NCBI RefSeq assembly: GCF_024436035.1
Contig: NZ_JANFNG010000004.1
Location: 62,001 to 126,000 of the forward strand
DNA: 64,000 nt
Direction of reading: 5' to 3'
DNA from: Streptomyces humicola
GTDB lineage: Bacteria; Actinomycetota; Actinomycetes; Streptomycetales; Streptomycetaceae
Part shown: piece after piece, positions 5 to 8,466 of the stretch
Position numbering within the stretch: the stretch's first letter is position 1
How the letters are laid out: each line of letters begins with the position of its first letter
Position numbers and translations under genes: made by a program
Notes under the pieces: generated by a model
What the model was told of the DNA's origin: nothing
Seen by the model: only the letters and a program-made list of their open reading frames with translations
The model's database searches: none

Positions 5-982
5 TCACTGTCCGTTCTCCTTACGCAGCTCGAAATCCCAGGCGTCGCGGACGATGGAGGTGAGGTCGGTGCGGGCGGGTTTCCAGCCGAGGCGGGTGCG
101 GGCGCGTTCGGCGGAGGCGACGAGGACGGCAGGGTCGCCGCCGCGCCGCGGCGCCACGGTCTCGGGGATCGGGTGGCCGGTGACGCGGCGGACGGTCTCG
201 ATCACCTCACGGACCGAGAAGCCGTTGCCGTTGCCGAGGTTGCAGATCAGATGCTCACCGGTGCGGGCATGGGCGAGAGCGAGGAGGTGGGCCTCTGCAA
301 GATCGGCGACATGGATGTAGTCGCGCACGCAGGTGCCGTCGGGGGTTGGGTAGTCGTCGCCGTAGACGGAGATCGACTCACGCTTGCCGAGAGCTACCTG
401 GAGCACCAGCGGAATCAGGTGGGTTTCGGGGTCGTGCCGTTCGCCGTACGGGCCGTACGAGCCGGCGACGTTGAAGTAGCGCAGGGAGACAGCGGCCAGG
501 CCGTGCGCCGCGCACTCGCCGGTGATCATGTGGTCGACGGCCAGCTTGCTCGCGCCGTACGGGTTGGTGGGCGACGCGGGGGCGTCCTCGGTGATGGGCA
601 CGGTGCGGGGTTCGCCGTAGACGGCGGCCGTGGAGGAGAAGACGAGAGTGCGCACGCCCACGTCGCGCATGGCGGTGAGCAGGTCGGTCGTGCCGCCGAC
701 ATTGTTGCGCCAGTACTTCTCGGGGTTGACGACGGACTCGCCCACCTGTGAGCTGGCGGCGAAGTGCAGGACGGCGTCGTAGGACGGGTCGAGCACACGG
801 ACCGCGTCCTGGATGCGGCCCTGGACGAAGTCGGCGCCCGCGGGGACGCCCTGGCTGTGCCCGGTGGTCACGTCGTCGAGGATCGTGACCTGGTGTCCGG
901 CGTCGAGCAGGTGCGCTGCGACGACACTGCCAACGTAACCGGCACCGCCGGTTACCAGGACCTTCTTGCCCGTGCTGCTCAC
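5..982 (-). CDS. galE: UDP-glucose 4-epimerase
   Basis: 325-residue extended short-chain dehydrogenase that interconverts UDP-galactose and UDP-glucose in the Leloir pathway. The N-terminal Rossmann motif GGAGYVGS (about residues 12-19) binds NAD; the YGASK segment in the middle carries the catalytic Tyr-xxx-Lys; the C-terminal half with RRGGDPA is typical of GalE substrate binding. The ATG at 982 overlaps the galT stop in a 4-base ATGA, so translation is probably coupled to galT. The stop codon lies at the very edge of the window; a galK gene would be expected just beyond it. Family assignment is firm. Confidence 0.96.
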
Positions 983-2106
983 TGGTGTCGCGCCTTTCGC
1001 TCGTAGCCGGGTGTGGCGATCTCGCGCAGCCGTGCGGCGGCCGCCTCCGGGGGCACATCGTTGATGAACACGTTCATGCCGGACTCGGAACCCGCGAGGA
1101 ACTTCAGCTTGCCCGACGTGCGGCGAATGGTGAAAAGTTCCAGATGGAGGGCGAAGTCACGGCGTGAGGGGTGGCTTACGGGCGCCTGGTGCCACGCGGC
1201 GATGTACGGGGTCGGCGGCTCGTCCTTGCCGAAGATCCGGTCGAAGCGGCGCAGCAGTTCGAGGTAGACGACGGGGAATTCGGCGCGCGCTGCGTCGTCG
1301 AGCGCGAGCAGGTCCGGCACGCGGTGGTTGGGGTACAGGTGCACCTCGTAGGGCCAGTGGGCGGCGTGCGGGACGAAGGCGGTCCAGTGGTCGGCCTCGA
1401 TGACGATCCGGCTGCCGGCAGCGCGTTCGGCGGCGAGCACGTCGTCGAAGAGATTCCCGCCTGCGATGCGTTCGCGATGGCGGTCGAGGGCGCGCAGCAT
1501 GCGCTCGGTGCGCGGGGTGACGAAGGGGTAGCCGTAGATCTGGCCATGCGGGTGACTGAGGGTGACGCCGATCTCGCGGCCGCGGTTCTCGAAGCAGAAG
1601 ACCTGCTCGACGCCGGGGAGCTGGGAGAGCTCGGCGGTGCGGTCGGTCCATGCCTCCAGCACGAGGCGGGCCTGCTCCGGGGTGAGGTCGGCGAAGGACG
1701 CGTCGTGGTCTGAGGTGAAGCACACGACCTCACAGCGTCCGGCCCCGGGACGGTGGGCGAGCAGGCCATGGCCGTCCTCGGCGGTGAGCGGTCCCGGGCC
1801 GCCGGTGAGCGAGGGGAACCGGTTCTCGAAGACGACGACGTCGTAGTCGTCGGCTGGGATCTCGGAGTGGCGCCCGTCGCGCGAGGGACACAGAGGGCAT
1901 TCGTCTGCCGGCGGGTGATAGGTGCGGCCCTGGCGGTGCGAGGCGACGGCGATCCACTCGTCGAGCAGCGCGTCGTAGCGGATCTCGGAGGCGGTGGCGG
2001 TGGGCTCCAGCGGACGAGGGTCGACCGCGTCGCGCACGACGTCGTCCCGGGAGTCGTAGTGCACCAGCTCACGGCCGTCGGCGAGCCTCATCGTCGTCTT
2101 CTTCAC
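979..2106 (-). CDS. galT: galactose-1-phosphate uridylyltransferase
   Basis: 375-residue GalT, which exchanges UMP between UDP-glucose and galactose-1-phosphate. The active-site HPH triad is at residues 185-187 (context [13 protein letters not shown]), and a CPLC pair at residues 70-73 matches the metal-binding cysteines of the family. I chose the GTG at 2106 because GAGGAG (2115-2120 on this strand) sits 8 bases upstream; an ATG five codons later is the alternative. It is first in the galT-galE unit and is divergent from the symporter gene, with a 246-base shared promoter region. Expression is probably galactose-controlled. Confidence 0.96.
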
Positions 2107-2352: not shown

Positions 2353-4023
2353 ATGTACGACTTGGCCGACGGGCTTCGGCTACCGACCAATGGTCTTGAC
2401 TACGCGATCCTGGTGATCTACTTCGCCGTGGTCCTCGGCATCGGCTTCGCTGCCAAGCGCAGTGTCAGGACCAGCCTCGACTTCTTCCTCTCCGGCCGGT
2501 CACTGCCCGCGTGGGTCACCGGCCTGGCCTTCATCGCCGCCAACCTCGGCGCCACCGAGATCCTGGGCATGGCGGCCAACGGCGCCCAGTACGGTGTGTA
2601 CACCGTCCACTGGTACTGGGTCGGTGCGATCCCGGCGATGGTCTTCCTCGGCCTGGTGATGATGCCGTTCTACTACGGCTCCAAGGTGCGCTCGGTCCCG
2701 GAGTTCCTGCTGCGCCGTTTCGACAAGAGCGCCCACTTGCTCAGCTCGATCCTGTTCGCCTTCTCCGCGGTTCTGATCGCCGGCGTCAACCTCTACGCGA
2801 TGGCGATCGTCGTGCAGGCGCTGCTGGGCTGGCCGACCTGGGTGGCGATCCTCGTCGCGGGACTCTTCGTCCTCGTCTACATCACCGTAGGCGGGCTCTC
2901 CTCCGCGATCTACAACGAGGTACTGCAGTTCTTCGTGATCCTCGCGGCGCTCATACCGCTCGTCATCGTCGGCCTCAAGCGCGTCGGCGGGTGGCACGGA
3001 CTGACCACGACGCTCACCCACTCCCACGGGCACAACTTCATGACCGCCTGGGGCGGTACGGGCATCGGCGCGAGCAACCCGCTCGGCGCCAACTGGCTCA
3101 CCATCGTCCTCGGCCTCGGCTTCGTGCTCAGCTTCGGCTACTGGACCACCAACTTCGCCGAGGTGCAGCGCGCGCTGTCCGCCAAGAACCTCTCGGCGGC
3201 CCGCCGCACCCCGCTGATCGCCGCGTTCCCGAAGGTCTTCATCGTCTTCGGCGTGCTGATCCCCGGACTGATCGCCGCGGCGATCGTGCCCAAGATCGGC
3301 ACCCCCGGCTCCAACCTCACCTATAACGACGCGATCCCGCTGCTCATGCAGGACCTGCTGCCCAACGGGGTGCTGGGCATCGCGGTGACCGGCCTGCTGG
3401 CGGCGTTCATGGCGGGCATGGCCGCCAACGTCTCCTCGTTCAACACCGTCTTCACCAACGACATCTGGTCGCAGTACGTCAAGCGCGGCGAATCCGATGC
3501 CTACTACCTGAAGTTCGGCCGGGTCATCACCGTCATCGGCGTGCTGATCAGCATCGGAACCGCGTTCCTCGCCTCCAGCTTCAGCAACATCATGGCGTAC
3601 CTGCAGACGTTGTTCTCGTTTTTCAACGTCCCGCTGTTCGTCGTGTTCATCATCGGCATGTTCTGGAAGCGGACCACGGCAAAGGCCGGGTTCTGGGGCC
3701 TGCTGGCGGGCACCGTCGCCGCGATGATCAACTACTTCTGGATCTACAAGGACCACATCGTCGCGATCCCCAGCGACCAGGGCGCCAACTTCGTCTCCGC
3801 GATCGTCGGCTTCGTCGCCGGAGCCGTGGTCATGGTCGCGGTGAGCCTGGTGACCAAGCCCAAGCCGGTGGAGGAGCTGGCCGGGCTGGTGTACGGGACG
3901 CGTTCGCCGGGCATGGAGGAGCCTCCGGCAGCGGGCGACGAGGCCTGGTACCGCAAGCCCGCGTTGCTGGGCACCGGCGCCCTGGTGCTCGCCGCCGCGC
4001 TTTACCTCCCCTTCTCGTTCTGA
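2353..4023 (+). CDS. sodium:solute symporter (SSS family), probable sugar transporter
   Basis: 556-residue integral membrane protein with about 14 hydrophobic segments and SSS family signatures: the N-terminal SLDFFLSGRSLP segment, the GATEILGMAANGAQYG region of the sodium site and the SFNTVFTNDIW segment. It resembles SglT/vSGLT-like sugar symporters. Its divergence from galT-galE suggests it imports galactose or a galactoside with sodium; the substrate is inferred from position. The ATG at 2353 follows GAAGCGAG. A small membrane-protein gene starts 33 bases after its stop and is probably co-transcribed. Confidence 0.88.
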   Translation: MYDLADGLRLPTNGLDYAILVIYFAVVLGIGFAAKRSVRTSLDFFLSGRSLPAWVTGLAFIAANLGATEILGMAANGAQYGVYTVHWYWVGAIPAMVFLGLVMMPFYYGSKVRSVPEFLLRRFDKSAHLLSSILFAFSAVLIAGVNLYAMAIVVQALLGWPTWVAILVAGLFVLVYITVGGLSSAIYNEVLQFFVILAALIPLVIVGLKRVGGWHGLTTTLTHSHGHNFMTAWGGTGIGASNPLGANWLTIVLGLGFVLSFGYWTTNFAEVQRALSAKNLSAARRTPLIAAFPKVFIVFGVLIPGLIAAAIVPKIGTPGSNLTYNDAIPLLMQDLLPNGVLGIAVTGLLAAFMAGMAANVSSFNTVFTNDIWSQYVKRGESDAYYLKFGRVITVIGVLISIGTAFLASSFSNIMAYLQTLFSFFNVPLFVVFIIGMFWKRTTAKAGFWGLLAGTVAAMINYFWIYKDHIVAIPSDQGANFVSAIVGFVAGAVVMVAVSLVTKPKPVEELAGLVYGTRSPGMEEPPAAGDEAWYRKPALLGTGALVLAAALYLPFSF

Positions 4024-4380: not shown

Positions 4381-4405
4381 CGGCGGACTGGTGATCAGTC
4401 CGCCG
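4381..4405. terminator. bidirectional hairpin terminator
   Basis: Perfect 9-bp inverted repeat CGGCGGACT / AGTCCGCCG with a 7-base loop between two convergent genes. The repeat overlaps the stop codon of the response regulator gene. There is no T-run, which is usual for high-GC actinobacterial terminators. Confidence 0.6.
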
Positions 4406-5093
4406 AGCCGGGCCGCCGCCCGTTGCGTTCGGCGACTGCGCGCTCCAGCAGCCCCGTACGGGCCGCGAGCGCCGCCGCCTCCAGGCGCGATCCGACGCCC
4501 AGCTTCATCAGTACCCGCTGCACATGGGTACGTGCCGTGCTCGACGCGATCCCCATCCGCGCGGCGATCAGCCGGGTGTCCTCGCCGTCCGCCACCCGTA
4601 CCAGCACCTCCACCTCGCGCGGGGTGAGCATCTGCAGCAGGCGCCCGGCCTCGTCGTCCGGCTCGGCGACCGGGTGGAGCAGCTCGGTGAAGGCGCCCTG
4701 CAGCAGCGCCGGTGCCACCGCGACCTCTCCGGCGCGTGCCTTCGCCATCGCGCGCTCCACGCCCTCGATGCGTTCGTCGTGACGCACGTAGCCGGAGGCA
4801 CCGGCGGCGAACGCCGCCGCGATGCCGCGCGGACTCGGTACGGGGCCGAGCACGACGACCGAAACCGTGGGACGCTCCCGCTTGATTCTCACCACGGGAT
4901 CGAACACACCCGGCTCCGCGGGTTGCGTCGTCCCCAGCAGGCACACCTCGGGCATGCGCGAGATCACCAGCTCCGCCGCGCTCGCGCACGGCGCGCCGGC
5001 CGCGAGGACGCGGTGGCCGCGCAGCTTCAGCGCCGAGGCGAGTGCCTCCGCGAGCAGACGGTGGTCGTCGACCACCACCAGCCTGACGCCCAT
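4395..5093 (-). CDS. atypical LuxR/NarL-family response regulator
   Basis: 232 residues: an N-terminal receiver-like domain (about 1-120) and a C-terminal LuxR helix-turn-helix (about 150-215, containing LTPREVEVLVRVADGED and the HVQRVLMKLGV recognition segment). The acidic pair D9-D10 is present, but the phospho-acceptor position in PEVCLLGTTQP is Gly54 rather than Asp, and the usual Lys near GASGY is replaced (GASGYVRHD). It is therefore probably not controlled by ordinary phosphorylation. No kinase gene is adjacent. The start at 5093 is preceded by GAGGGGG; longer in-frame starts lack such a site. Target genes are unknown. Confidence 0.85.
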   Translation of the reverse strand: MGVRLVVVDDHRLLAEALASALKLRGHRVLAAGAPCASAAELVISRMPEVCLLGTTQPAEPGVFDPVVRIKRERPTVSVVVLGPVPSPRGIAAAFAAGASGYVRHDERIEGVERAMAKARAGEVAVAPALLQGAFTELLHPVAEPDDEAGRLLQMLTPREVEVLVRVADGEDTRLIAARMGIASSTARTHVQRVLMKLGVGSRLEAAALAARTGLLERAVAERNGRRPGSAD

Positions 5094-5628
5094 GTGGCTT
5101 GCCCCCTCATTCCCGCAGGGCCCGGGAGTCCCGGGCGGTAGTGAGACTCCCCGGTGCGGCGCGTTTCCACGCACGTGATGTGATGCCAATGCCGTACCCG
5201 ATGCTGCGACAGCAGTCGTAGCGTCCGTCTGCCCAGTGTCCCGTGCGCACCCCACCTACTGCGGGACCGGGCCTCGCCCGGAAGGTACACGCTTACTCGT
5301 CGTCGTGTGCCCATTACCCACAAGAAGGATCCTCGACGAGCCTCCCCTCCGGCGTTTCCGAGCGATTACTGATCTGTTTCCAGCCGACTCGGGGACGGCT
5401 CGTATCCGTCCGTGCGCCCTGTGTAGTCACTCGCGCCGCCCTCCGCCTCATGCAACTCCCCAGGCAGGGACGGTGGTTGAAGCGCATACCGGACACGAAC
5501 CGGTACACGATGCGCCACCACAGGGTCACCACATGTGACGGATTTGGATCGGTCGATGTGCAAACCGTGAAGATTATCGACAGACTCGCGTCCGTTATCC
5601 GGAACATCTCAGCGAGGAGATGATCGAT
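5094..5628. other. non-coding divergent region
   Basis: 535 bases with no gene I can support. It must carry the promoters of the response regulator (minus) and the protease inhibitor (plus). A tight inverted repeat GCCCGGG/CCCGGGC with a 3-base loop (5120-5136) lies in the regulator's 5' leader, 27 bases upstream of its start. I see no other convincing structure. Confidence 0.5.
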
Positions 5629-6084
5629 ATGCGGAGCAGAGCAGGACTGGTGGCTGTGTGCGGCGCCATGCTCGCCGCGGCCGTCGCACTGCCGTTGGGC
5701 GGCACGGCGTACGCCGCCGATACCGCCGGCGCGACGGACGCAGCACGGACGGCCGCGGCTGACACCCCGTCCGCCCTGGTCCTCACCCTGTCGCCCGGCG
5801 AATCCGCCCAGACGGTGGGCGTGGAGCGCGCGGTGACACTGACCTGTACGCCCTCACCGGGCGGGAGCCATCCGGCGCCGCAGGAAGCGTGCGCCGAACT
5901 CAGCGCCGCCGACGGCGATCTGGCCGCGCTCCCGGCACAGCCGCAGTCGTTCTGCGCCATGATCTACGCCCCGGTCGTCGTCACCGTGCAGGGGGCATGG
6001 CAGGGCGAACGCGTCGACTACGCACGCAGTTTCCCGAACGAGTGCGTGATGCGCGCCCAAGGCGGCCCGCTCTACGCCTTCTGA
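5629..6084 (+). CDS. secreted subtilisin inhibitor (SSI family)
   Basis: 151-residue precursor with a typical signal peptide (Arg at 2 and 4, hydrophobic core to about 23, AYA cleavage near residue 29). The mature part is a Streptomyces subtilisin inhibitor: PSALVLTL near the start, ERAVTLTC, four cysteines at 73, 88, 109 and 139 for the two conserved disulfides, and a C-terminal YAF. The reactive-site loop reads CAMIYAPV, so P1 is Met111 and P1' Ile112. It should inhibit extracellular subtilisin-like proteases. I chose ATG 5629 because GAGGAG lies 9 bases upstream; for the ATG at 5620 the same site would be too close. Confidence 0.93.
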   Translation: MRSRAGLVAVCGAMLAAAVALPLGGTAYAADTAGATDAARTAAADTPSALVLTLSPGESAQTVGVERAVTLTCTPSPGGSHPAPQEACAELSAADGDLAALPAQPQSFCAMIYAPVVVTVQGAWQGERVDYARSFPNECVMRAQGGPLYAF

Positions 6085-6278: not shown

Positions 6279-6928
6279 TCAGCCCCTTCTCAGCAACGTG
6301 ATCCCGTCGTCGTACGCCACGCCGTGGTAGCCGTGGGCTTCCGCCCAGGCGACGGCGTCGGCCGCCGCCCGCGGCGAACAGCAGCGGCAGCGCCCAGCAC
6401 ACCGCTGCCCGCCACCGCCGCCGGGCCGCCGCCTCCGCCGCGAAGGCCAGCAGCGGGACGGACGGCGAAGCACACTTCGTGGAAGTCGAAGTGCACGGCT
6501 TGCACAAGCCCCCACGACGCCCCGACACCGAACCCGGTCACGACCGCCGCAGCCGGCCCGATCTCTTGACAGGCCCATCGGGAGAGCGGGAGGATCGCCG
6601 ACGCGATGAGGGCGGCCTGCGCCACGAGCAGGGTGAGCGGGCTGGGAAAGACCCGGTACACGCGGGCGAGCAGCATCAGCACTGGATGGAAATGATCACC
6701 CAGCAGGTTGTATCCAGGCCCTTTCAACGGGGCCACGGGCGCGTGCGGATGCGCGTAGGCACGCACCGCCTGCTCGAAGATCCCCAGGTCGTATCCGGCC
6801 GACCGCAGCTGCTGATGCCTGCGGATCGACAGCGCGCAGTACAGGCCGAAGAAGAGGGCGGCCATCGCGACGGGGATCGCCCGCTCGGCCCAGCGGCCCG
6901 GCTCCGGGGTTCTGCCGGACGGGCTCAA
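6279..6928 (-). pseudogene. decayed DUF2079 membrane protein gene
   Basis: The frame starting near the TTG at 6928 encodes typical DUF2079 sequence (YDLGIFEQAVRAYAHPHAP, GYNLLGDHFHP, VYRVFPSPLTLLVAQAAL, HFDFHEVCFAV). At 6456-6463 the plus strand reads GGACGGAC; one GGAC looks like a 4-base duplication that shifts the frame. The continuation (PLLAFAAEAAARRRWRAA) is in the second frame. The C-terminal end (AVAWAEAHGYHGVAYDDG) is in the third frame, ending at 6279. About 250 internal residues of a normal 450-residue protein are missing. The putative start overlaps the stop of the upstream PQQ-propeller gene. I read this as a relic with one frameshift and one large deletion. Confidence 0.8.
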
Positions 6929-8466
6929 TGGAACGCCGCGATCAACACCGGCGTGGTGCCCGTGCTGCCCCCCGCGTAGATCTGCTGCGGCGCCATGAAG
7001 AAGTGCTCCCGGTACCAGTACAGACCCATCCCGGTGCCGACGCCGTAGGCCTTGTTCTCCCCGCTCTGCGTGGACGAGGAGAACTGGACGTAGCGCGTGA
7101 CCGCACCGGTCGAGGTGTCGATGCGGTAGATCGCCCCCGGGCTCTGAAAGCTGACGGGCATGTACGCGAGCAGATTGTTCCCGCTCTCCGCGAAGACCTC
7201 CAGGGCCCGTTCCTTGTCGCCCCTGCTGACCCACTTAGGCTGCCCGTTCGACAGATCGATCGCCTCGACCTCGTTGACCTGGCCGTAGGTGCCCTGCGCC
7301 GCGTTCCCCTGGGCGGAGGCGGTGGCGATGTAGGCGGTGCCGCTGTCGACGACGACGTCGTTGCAGGGCATCAGATCGTTGGCCGGGCAGTCGATGTGGA
7401 CCTTGCTCTTGTCGAGAGCGAACTGGGAACGCGTCCTGCCGCTCGCGTCGATGGCGAGGGCATCCGTGATCAGATCCGATCCGGCGGCGATGCCGACCAC
7501 CACCGGGTCGACCGACAGCACATTGGTCACCGAGGTGCCGGCCGGGGCGTCCCAGGTCCACAGCGCCTTGCCGGACATGGGGTCGAGCTTGGCCACGTGG
7601 TACGGCCCGTCGAAGCCGCACTGGATGACGTCGATGAGCTGTGTGCCGCCAGCAAAGCCCTTGTCGGTGCACTGGGCGCCGTCCTGGAGCTGCCACAGCA
7701 TCTTATCCGTGCCGATCTGGTAGGCGACGGAGTCGCCCTCCCACGCGAGGGCGACGACATCGCCGCTGATGCCGATCTGGGTGTAGTCGTACTCGACCGG
7801 GCTGCCGTCGCCGTTGCGGGACGGGAGGGGCTTGGTCCACAGCCGGCGGTGCGCCGAGAGGTCGATGAGCATGACGTTCTCGCACCGCGTGCCGTACTGC
7901 ACTGCGATCTTGTCGTTCACCGCCTCGTGCGACACCGCACAGGTGGTGCCGGAGGGGGCGGCGATCGTCCAGTCCTCGTGGCCGTTGTCGATGTTGTAGG
8001 CGGTGACGCCGCTGAGCGTGGTCTTGACGACGTCGTCCCCGGAGAACCACACGCCCGGGTCGGGCTTGAGCCCGGCGCTCGACGGCACCGACGGGGAGGG
8101 CTTGTCCCAGACGAGCCTTCCCTGGGAGTGGTGCTGTGCGTCGATTCCACCGCCCGAACCGCCGCCGCCCTGGGCCTGGTTGTGCGAGCCGCCGCGGAAG
8201 GCCACGAGCCACACGCCGCCTGCCACCACGAGCACCGCTGCGACCACCGCTGCGACCACCGCTGCGACCACCGCGGCGATCCTGCCGCCCGACAGCCCTC
8301 GGGCCGGCGCGACGGGCGAGTAGGGCGCCGGGTACGCGGGCTGCTGCACCGGCCACCCCTGCGGGGGCTGCTGCTGTGCGTACGGGTTGTACGAGTTCCC
8401 GTACGGGCTGTTGCCGGGGCTGTTGTAAGAGTTCTGGCCCGGTGGCGGCGGCGGTGGCTGCGACAT
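6925..8466 (-). CDS. membrane-anchored PQQ-like beta-propeller protein
   Basis: 513 residues: a proline/glutamine/tyrosine-rich cytoplasmic N terminus (about 1-55), one transmembrane helix (about 62-90) with an Ala/Val repeat, then a large extracellular domain with PQQ-like propeller blades (GVTAYNIDNGHEDWTI, MSGKALWTWDAP, VEAIDLSNGQPKWVS). Function unknown; such proteins are common in Streptomyces and may be surface scaffolds or sensors. ATG 8466 is preceded by GGGGGAA; the longer frame to 8559 has no good ribosome site. The decayed DUF2079 gene follows with overlapping stop/start. Confidence 0.85.
   Translation of the reverse strand: MSQPPPPPPGQNSYNSPGNSPYGNSYNPYAQQQPPQGWPVQQPAYPAPYSPVAPARGLSGGRIAAVVAAVVAAVVAAVLVVAGGVWLVAFRGGSHNQAQGGGGSGGGIDAQHHSQGRLVWDKPSPSVPSSAGLKPDPGVWFSGDDVVKTTLSGVTAYNIDNGHEDWTIAAPSGTTCAVSHEAVNDKIAVQYGTRCENVMLIDLSAHRRLWTKPLPSRNGDGSPVEYDYTQIGISGDVVALAWEGDSVAYQIGTDKMLWQLQDGAQCTDKGFAGGTQLIDVIQCGFDGPYHVAKLDPMSGKALWTWDAPAGTSVTNVLSVDPVVVGIAAGSDLITDALAIDASGRTRSQFALDKSKVHIDCPANDLMPCNDVVVDSGTAYIATASAQGNAAQGTYGQVNEVEAIDLSNGQPKWVSRGDKERALEVFAESGNNLLAYMPVSFQSPGAIYRIDTSTGAVTRYVQFSSSTQSGENKAYGVGTGMGLYWYREHFFMAPQQIYAGGSTGTTPVLIAAFH
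8238..8273 (-). repeat. three tandem 12-bp repeats in a transmembrane segment
   Basis: Three exact copies of CTGCGACCACCG (plus strand) in frame within the PQQ-propeller gene. Each adds one Ala-Val-Val-Ala unit to the transmembrane helix, so copy-number slippage would change helix length without shifting the frame. Confidence 0.9.

Follow-up and report, generated by a model that had tools for sequence, protein, structure and literature searches.

A response regulator without a phospho-acceptor aspartate, conserved across the Streptomyces family, and its possible origin in a kinase-regulator module

The 64,000-nucleotide stretch of DNA analysed here (the window) encodes a regulator, labelled A in this analysis, that is by definition an aspartate-less receiver regulator; its family is uncharacterised and its history can be traced. 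With a probability of roughly 45% we consider A to be the kinase-orphaned remnant of a module of a histidine kinase, A and a sister regulator labelled B, which would now act without phosphorylation and be set by its abundance and its choice of dimer partner. Judged from its sequence, A cannot be controlled by aspartate phosphorylation at the usual site, since it has lost three of the five residues of the active site and the Asp is present in none of the 107 orthologues. The sequence-only reading that preceded this work had expected control by a different mechanism, and to this extent it was right. By the Streptomyces family we mean the family of the window (f1). The coordinates of all features are collected in Table 1.

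Table 1. Position, strand and supporting evidence of regulator A, its key residues and its neighbours (window positions unless a contig or residue numbers are given)
Feature	Position	Strand	Evidence
galE	5..982	-	Pfam
galT	979..2106	-	Pfam
Sodium:solute symporter, convergent with A	2353..4023	+	Pfam
Regulator A, 232 aa	4395..5093	-	ORF, Pfam, NarL/DesR alignment, AlphaFold model
Pseudo-receiver of A	residues 1-120	-	Pfam, alignment, model
LuxR/GerE helix-turn-helix of A	residues about 151-216	-	Pfam GerE
His105 codon, conserved Lys position of A	4779..4781	-	alignment, orthologues
Gly83 codon, conserved Thr/Ser position of A	4845..4847	-	alignment, orthologues, model
Gly54 codon GGG, phospho-acceptor position of A	4932..4934	-	alignment, orthologues, model
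Asp9-Asp10 codons, acidic pair kept in A	5064..5069	-	sequence; 107/107 orthologues
Conserved element AAGCGTGTACCTTCC, candidate promoter or operator of A	5280..5294	-	motif searches
galK and regulator B, just beyond the window	contig C44:59994-62008	same strand as A	

The reading frame of A is open upstream as far as 5255, and the start used by the orthologues is the ATG at 5091-5093. The match to Pfam GerE lies above its cut-off (54.2 bits, cut-off 23.5) and the match to Response_reg below it (25.9 bits, cut-off 30.2). In sequence and fold we found full-length matches to DesR, NarL and VraR, and the receiver-like fold followed by a C-terminal LuxR/GerE helix-turn-helix makes A a NarL/FixJ-type response regulator. 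In the phmmer alignment Gly54 stands opposite the phospho-Asp of NarL and DesR, Gly83 and His105 take the places of the Thr/Ser and the Lys, and the acidic pair is kept. From the set that defines a canonical phosphorylatable receiver (DD, D, T/S, K) A thus retains DD alone, and a receiver without the phospho-acceptor Asp is a pseudo-receiver. The sequence-only reading had described the missing acceptor, the retained pair D9-D10 and the changed Lys, all of which we can confirm; the change of Thr to Gly83 is additional. It had also asked for an alignment with NarL-family receivers, which gave Gly54 at the acceptor position and no Asp there, and for a structure prediction.

The AlphaFold model of A (single chain, 39 sequences, best of five) had a mean pLDDT of 83.0 and a pTM of 0.64, with pLDDT values of 60.6-77.2 for the other four models. 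Strand 1 ends in Asp9, strand 3 in Gly54 and strand 4 in Gly83, and His105 follows directly after strand 5, so these positions correspond to the sites of the DD pair, the D, the T and the K; Gly54 at the end of strand 3 is the acceptor site here as well. Foldseek matched the model over its full length to VraR, LiaR and NarL; the TM-scores reached only about 0.5 and the rmsd was large, probably because the two domains are arranged differently. Given the model and the alignments with NarL and DesR, we rejected a misalignment of Gly54.

We collected 107 full-length orthologues of A, 27 from whole-genome searches and 80 from the matches listed in a pattern scan. Over residues 2-216 there are 94 distinct sequences, and at least three pairs are one contig met twice; an incomplete copy (L035) and paralogues or outgroups (L002-L008, L036, L037) were excluded. 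Asp9, Asp10, His11, Arg12, Gly54 and Gly83 are invariant in all 107 orthologues listed, where DD is partly selected in the 80 pattern-scan rows because DDHRLLAE was among the patterns, and Gly54 and Gly83 are unselected. Position 105 is His in 99 cases, Ser in four and Gln in four. The comparison of homologues, also proposed beforehand, therefore argues against a sequencing error at Gly54. As GGG is two base changes away from any Asp codon, a single miscalled base is no explanation either, and this candidate was discarded.

For the individual genomes we detected A at E ≤ 1e-30 in 28 of 37 members of the Streptomyces family, one copy being incomplete. An order-wide sample contained 132 genomes of this family and A was present in 130 of them; 131 belong to genus g9, with A in 129 of those, and G123 and G131 are without A. 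Neither A nor B was found at the cut-offs used in the seven genomes of the genera g2, g5 and g15, and a later profile search of those genomes without A returned matches near 1e-40, the level of ordinary regulators. We computed dN/dS for 16 of the 27 sequences (120 pairs) and obtained medians of 0.24 for the receiver, 0.31 for the linker and 0.17 for the helix-turn-helix. The value for the receiver indicates purifying selection and hence a receiver that is retained for function. A pseudogene reading was dropped on account of this selection and of the residues kept in all 107 orthologues listed.

The neighbourhood of A is also conserved. Among the matches listed, 66 loci had full flanks and near A they contained galE in 58 cases, galT in 61, the symporter in 56 and an ABC-F-like ATPase in 64. 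The sequence-only reading had compared A to the ligand-binding regulators of some antibiotic clusters, and this parallel did not hold, the neighbours of A being galE, galT, a symporter and an ABC-F-like ATPase and not biosynthetic genes. We saw no biosynthetic genes in the neighbourhood and rejected an antibiotic-cluster regulator; descent from a former histidine kinase-A-B module is better supported than that parallel. Two other observations concern the region upstream of A. A gene for a subtilisin inhibitor (SSI, Pfam) at 5620-6084 on the plus strand is divergent from A and is perhaps local to this lineage, as SSI was undetected within the flanks of the 80 listed loci. At 6279-7234 on the minus strand we noticed by eye overlapping frames that look like a membrane protein broken by frameshifts.

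Upstream of A we found an element of the form AGCGTGTA[GC]CTTCCG, often with GTCGAACA before it. Its core GTGTA[GC]CTT occurs 44-197 bp 5' of A in 77 of 80 sequences, namely the window and 79 listed loci (of 80 scan loci, L058 was dropped), and the 10-mer GCGTGTAGCT is present in 76 of the 79 loci. The 15-mer AAGCGTGTASCTTCC has one match in the window, at 5280-5294 with zero mismatches, for 0.06 matches expected at up to two mismatches. Across the genome the sole exact copy is the one at A; three more copies appear at two mismatches, compared to 22 for the reversed control. A scan for sigma-70 promoters around A found none. We also searched 26 relatives from the G genomes: AGCGTGTASCTTCCG was present within two mismatches in 13 and with three mismatches at a similar distance in three more, and in the remaining relatives, including L009, it was absent or the match unlikely. 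For L009, which belongs to the genus of the window, the element was not found within 600 bp of A at up to four mismatches. The element at 5280-5294 is a candidate promoter or operator of A.

The sister regulator B (C44:59994-60776) is encoded 5.6 kb from A on the same strand, behind galK. It starts about 90 bp 3' of galK on the same strand and may thus be transcribed with the gal operon. For the receiver of B we compared 28 members of the Streptomyces family: the Asp is kept in all 28, Thr is replaced by Ala in all 28, and the Lys position is Lys in 26 and Arg in two. The second acidic residue is Gly in six of the 28, two not being covered. Outside the main family line D and K are present in 10 of 10 and T/S in nine of 10. 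The loop after the acceptor Asp of B (L118 9994-10776) carries a long and variable insertion rich in proline and alanine, and this loop contains an insertion in the Catenulispora-like A too.

In 26 of the 27 family genomes with both regulators A and B share a contig, on the same strand, with A first and at a distance of about 1.6-8.4 kb; in G001, a fragmented assembly, they are on separate contigs. We observed galT, galE and galK between them in L118, L121, L123 and L189, together with the symporter and a small protein in L118. Between A and B we detected only the galT end and galE in L183, and only galE in L184. In L183 the short galT end (2400-2546) is all of galT that was detected between A and galE, and A and B are both kept. 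Across the 37 family genomes, at the cut-offs used, 27 have both regulators, seven neither, one A only and two B only (L123 and L176 are one B and were counted once); the Fisher p of 2.6e-5 is overstated, as the seven genomes without either come from three genera. Of the two regulators, only A was found in G010 and only B in G011 and G024 (B partial in G024). The linkage of A and B is not strict.

We then turned to other actinobacteria, where we searched class-wide with profiles and examined twelve regions. A and B are often neighbours there, in some loci preceded by a histidine kinase gene. The genomes of genus g19 are taken to be Catenulispora-like. In one such genome (L122) a gene with HisKA and HATPase_c domains (Pfam) precedes A and B, which are next to each other on one strand, and this locus lies near an ABC-F gene like the one found by A in 64 of 66 listed Streptomyces loci. 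The arrangement histidine kinase-A-B, in one order and on one strand, was encountered in L122, L219 and L221. The kinase and A occur in L222 and L223, where B was not seen before the stretch ended; A and B occur without such a kinase in L224 and, divergently, in L220; and A is solitary in L225. L226-L230 contain other regulators. B comes before A in L185 (G037), where the module kinase was not found.

For A of other families we observed the acceptor Asp, the Thr/Ser and the Lys in 11 of 11 cases, and likewise in a paralogue, A', of G003; four of these 12 carry a changed acidic pair. For A of the Streptomyces family all 19 tree rows show the letters DDGG followed by H, S or Q. As A of the other families retains D, S/T and K, we place the loss of these three residues in A on the stem of the Streptomyces family. 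A tree of 68 regulators, for which we used 19 of the 27 family A and 16 of the 28 family B, recovers the A-labelled rows (31) and the B-labelled rows (26) each as one group (100/99). It places A of the Streptomyces family, whose stem measures 1.24 changes per site, as sister to the Catenulispora-like A (84/81); several branches are long and the bootstrap was not settled. The orthology of A in the Streptomyces family with A elsewhere is a probable one, based on a long stem branch and an ABC-F gene shared in one locus, L122. An additional, divergently transcribed A'/B' pair was noticed in L119 and L190 (both G003) and in L120 (G029), with the acidic residues EA in A' and DR in B'; we found no module kinase beside it.

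The search for the kinase itself used a profile of five module kinases. One row is from g19, which tilts the search towards the Catenulispora-like genus, although the remaining rows are 31-34% identical to it. At most 45 candidates per genome were scored. Eight of the 10 Catenulispora-like genomes matched at 5.9e-83 to 4.8e-90, and in G039 and G042 the module kinase is on a different contig from A and B. Among the candidates scored in the 37 family genomes there was no orthologue of the module kinase, the best match being 3.7e-25; the best match in the genome of the window, on another contig, was 1.1e-16. The profile had no match in L118 (C44:50001-69000), L121, L123, L183, L184 and L189. By this profile A has no nearby partner kinase and is an orphan response regulator. 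A pocket residue is changed in one of five modules with the kinase (B unseen in two) and in five of five lineages without it (Fisher p 0.048), a weak trend because the solitary canonical A of L225 was omitted and a fair count would be five of six. B keeps its Asp and could still be served by an unlinked kinase.

For A as the remnant of such a module we propose the following course. The module kinase would have been lost in the Streptomyces family, and the gal genes would have come to lie between A and B as they do now. A would bind DNA without phosphorylation, and its receiver would serve mainly as a dimerisation module. By analogy to BldM and WhiI, its activity may depend on the amounts of A and B and on whether A pairs with itself or with B. 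Expression of A would start from a conserved promoter region of its own, and co-transcription of B with the gal operon would couple the pair to the carbon supply. A more specific version treats the pair as a domesticated two-component module that lost its kinase, was parted by the gal operon and became an obligate phosphorylation-free heterodimer, each half being expressed from a separate promoter, for A its own and for B that of the sugar-controlled gal operon, so that the dimer reads the carbon state; in this full form we regard it as unlikely. NarL-type regulators dimerise through the alpha1/alpha5 face. In A and B the conservation is 0.93 and 0.94 for helix 1, the highest of all helices, 0.87 and 0.89 for helix 4, 0.82 and 0.89 for helix 5, and 62% and 73% for helix 2; since helix 4 is conserved like helix 5, no dimer face is singled out.

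A could also act alone, as a constitutive homodimeric DNA-binding protein that is controlled by its expression only, with B an independent neighbour. Many atypical regulators dimerise without phosphorylation (PMC12632262), A has a conserved upstream element of its own, and G010, G011 and G024 each keep one regulator without the other. However, A and B form matched sister groups whose order and strand are the same in every one of the 26 genomes with the two on one contig, and both receivers are damaged in the Streptomyces family, so we hold independent action to be possible and rather improbable. A third explanation is that DNA binding responds to a small molecule or metal that sits in the rebuilt pocket (Asp9, Asp10, Gly54, Gly83, His105). 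The near invariance of the changed positions and of DD-His-Arg would fit a new pocket, and RedZ and JadR1 are precedents (PMC12632262), but no ligand is known for A, its neighbours are not biosynthetic, position 105 can be His, Ser or Gln, and the c-di-GMP motif of VpsT is missing from all 107 listed orthologues. We judge this explanation to be quite unlikely.

That A is a dedicated regulator of the galactose operon is suggested by galT and galE beside it in most listed loci and by the position of A and B on either side of the gal genes in the loci read. Against this, the Catenulispora-like locus L122 has A and B but yielded no gal gene, and A and B persist in L183 and L184, where a fragment of galT or none was detected and no galK. 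A dedicated role is thus very improbable, and gal-operon regulation is unlikely to be the primary role of A. Two specific mechanisms were also considered. VpsT-type receivers for c-di-GMP carry the motif W[FLM][TS]R, which none of the 107 listed A orthologues has, and VpsT-like binding was rejected. Redox control by Cys as in RitR is less likely: Cys51 is present in 105 of the 107 but lies inside strand 3, and it is a single Cys in 95.

In a 2025 review the mechanisms by which pseudo-receivers are activated or inactivated are called a mystery (PMC12632262). For A both the state before and the state after can be read, an intact kinase-A-B module elsewhere and a kinase-less, degenerate pair across the Streptomyces family, which gives a natural series on the role of the receiver once phosphorylation is gone. 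From gene order and recall, and not from sequence, we presume that SCO3144 of S. coelicolor is A and that SCO3134 is B. Both are tabulated as NarL-type orphan regulators (PMC9739842). SCO3134 is higher in later mycelium (PMC3610822), down-regulated in glucose (PMC4848846) and influenced by the carbon source (PMC10345050); for SCO3144 a change of 2.42 is given in a study that examined relaxation and supercoiling of the chromosome (PMC6637917). In the one collection searched, SCO3144 and SCO3134 appear in table entries or brief mentions, and no literature was found on the regulation of galP1 in Streptomyces. A is present in 130 of 132 sampled family genomes, yet for its probable S. coelicolor homologue this collection yielded table entries only.

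Among known systems A resembles the aspartate-less receivers (ALRs), which likewise couple a DNA-binding domain to a receiver fold that has no acceptor Asp. In 11% of ALRs the Asp is replaced by Gly, only 29% have an acidic residue at the second acidic position, and 70% have a basic one at the Lys position (PMC4395418). A departs from typical ALRs in that its acidic pair is complete and Asp, Thr and Lys are all missing, a pattern that is uncommon by the statistics of PMC4395418; according to that 2015 paper, a characterised example of the Gly type with a structure was lacking. The atypical Streptomyces regulators RedZ and JadR1 are inhibited by end products of their pathways (PMC12632262; for RedZ also PMC9739842), and RedZ sits in its own biosynthetic cluster (PMC9739842), which A does not. 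There is also a likeness to BldM and WhiI, which form a heterodimer in which the pocket of WhiI is degenerate and BldM is functional with a substituted acceptor Asp (PMC4125116; the precedent is also described in PMC12632262). Like these, A and B are two atypical orphan regulators, paired in genomic position and in the tree.
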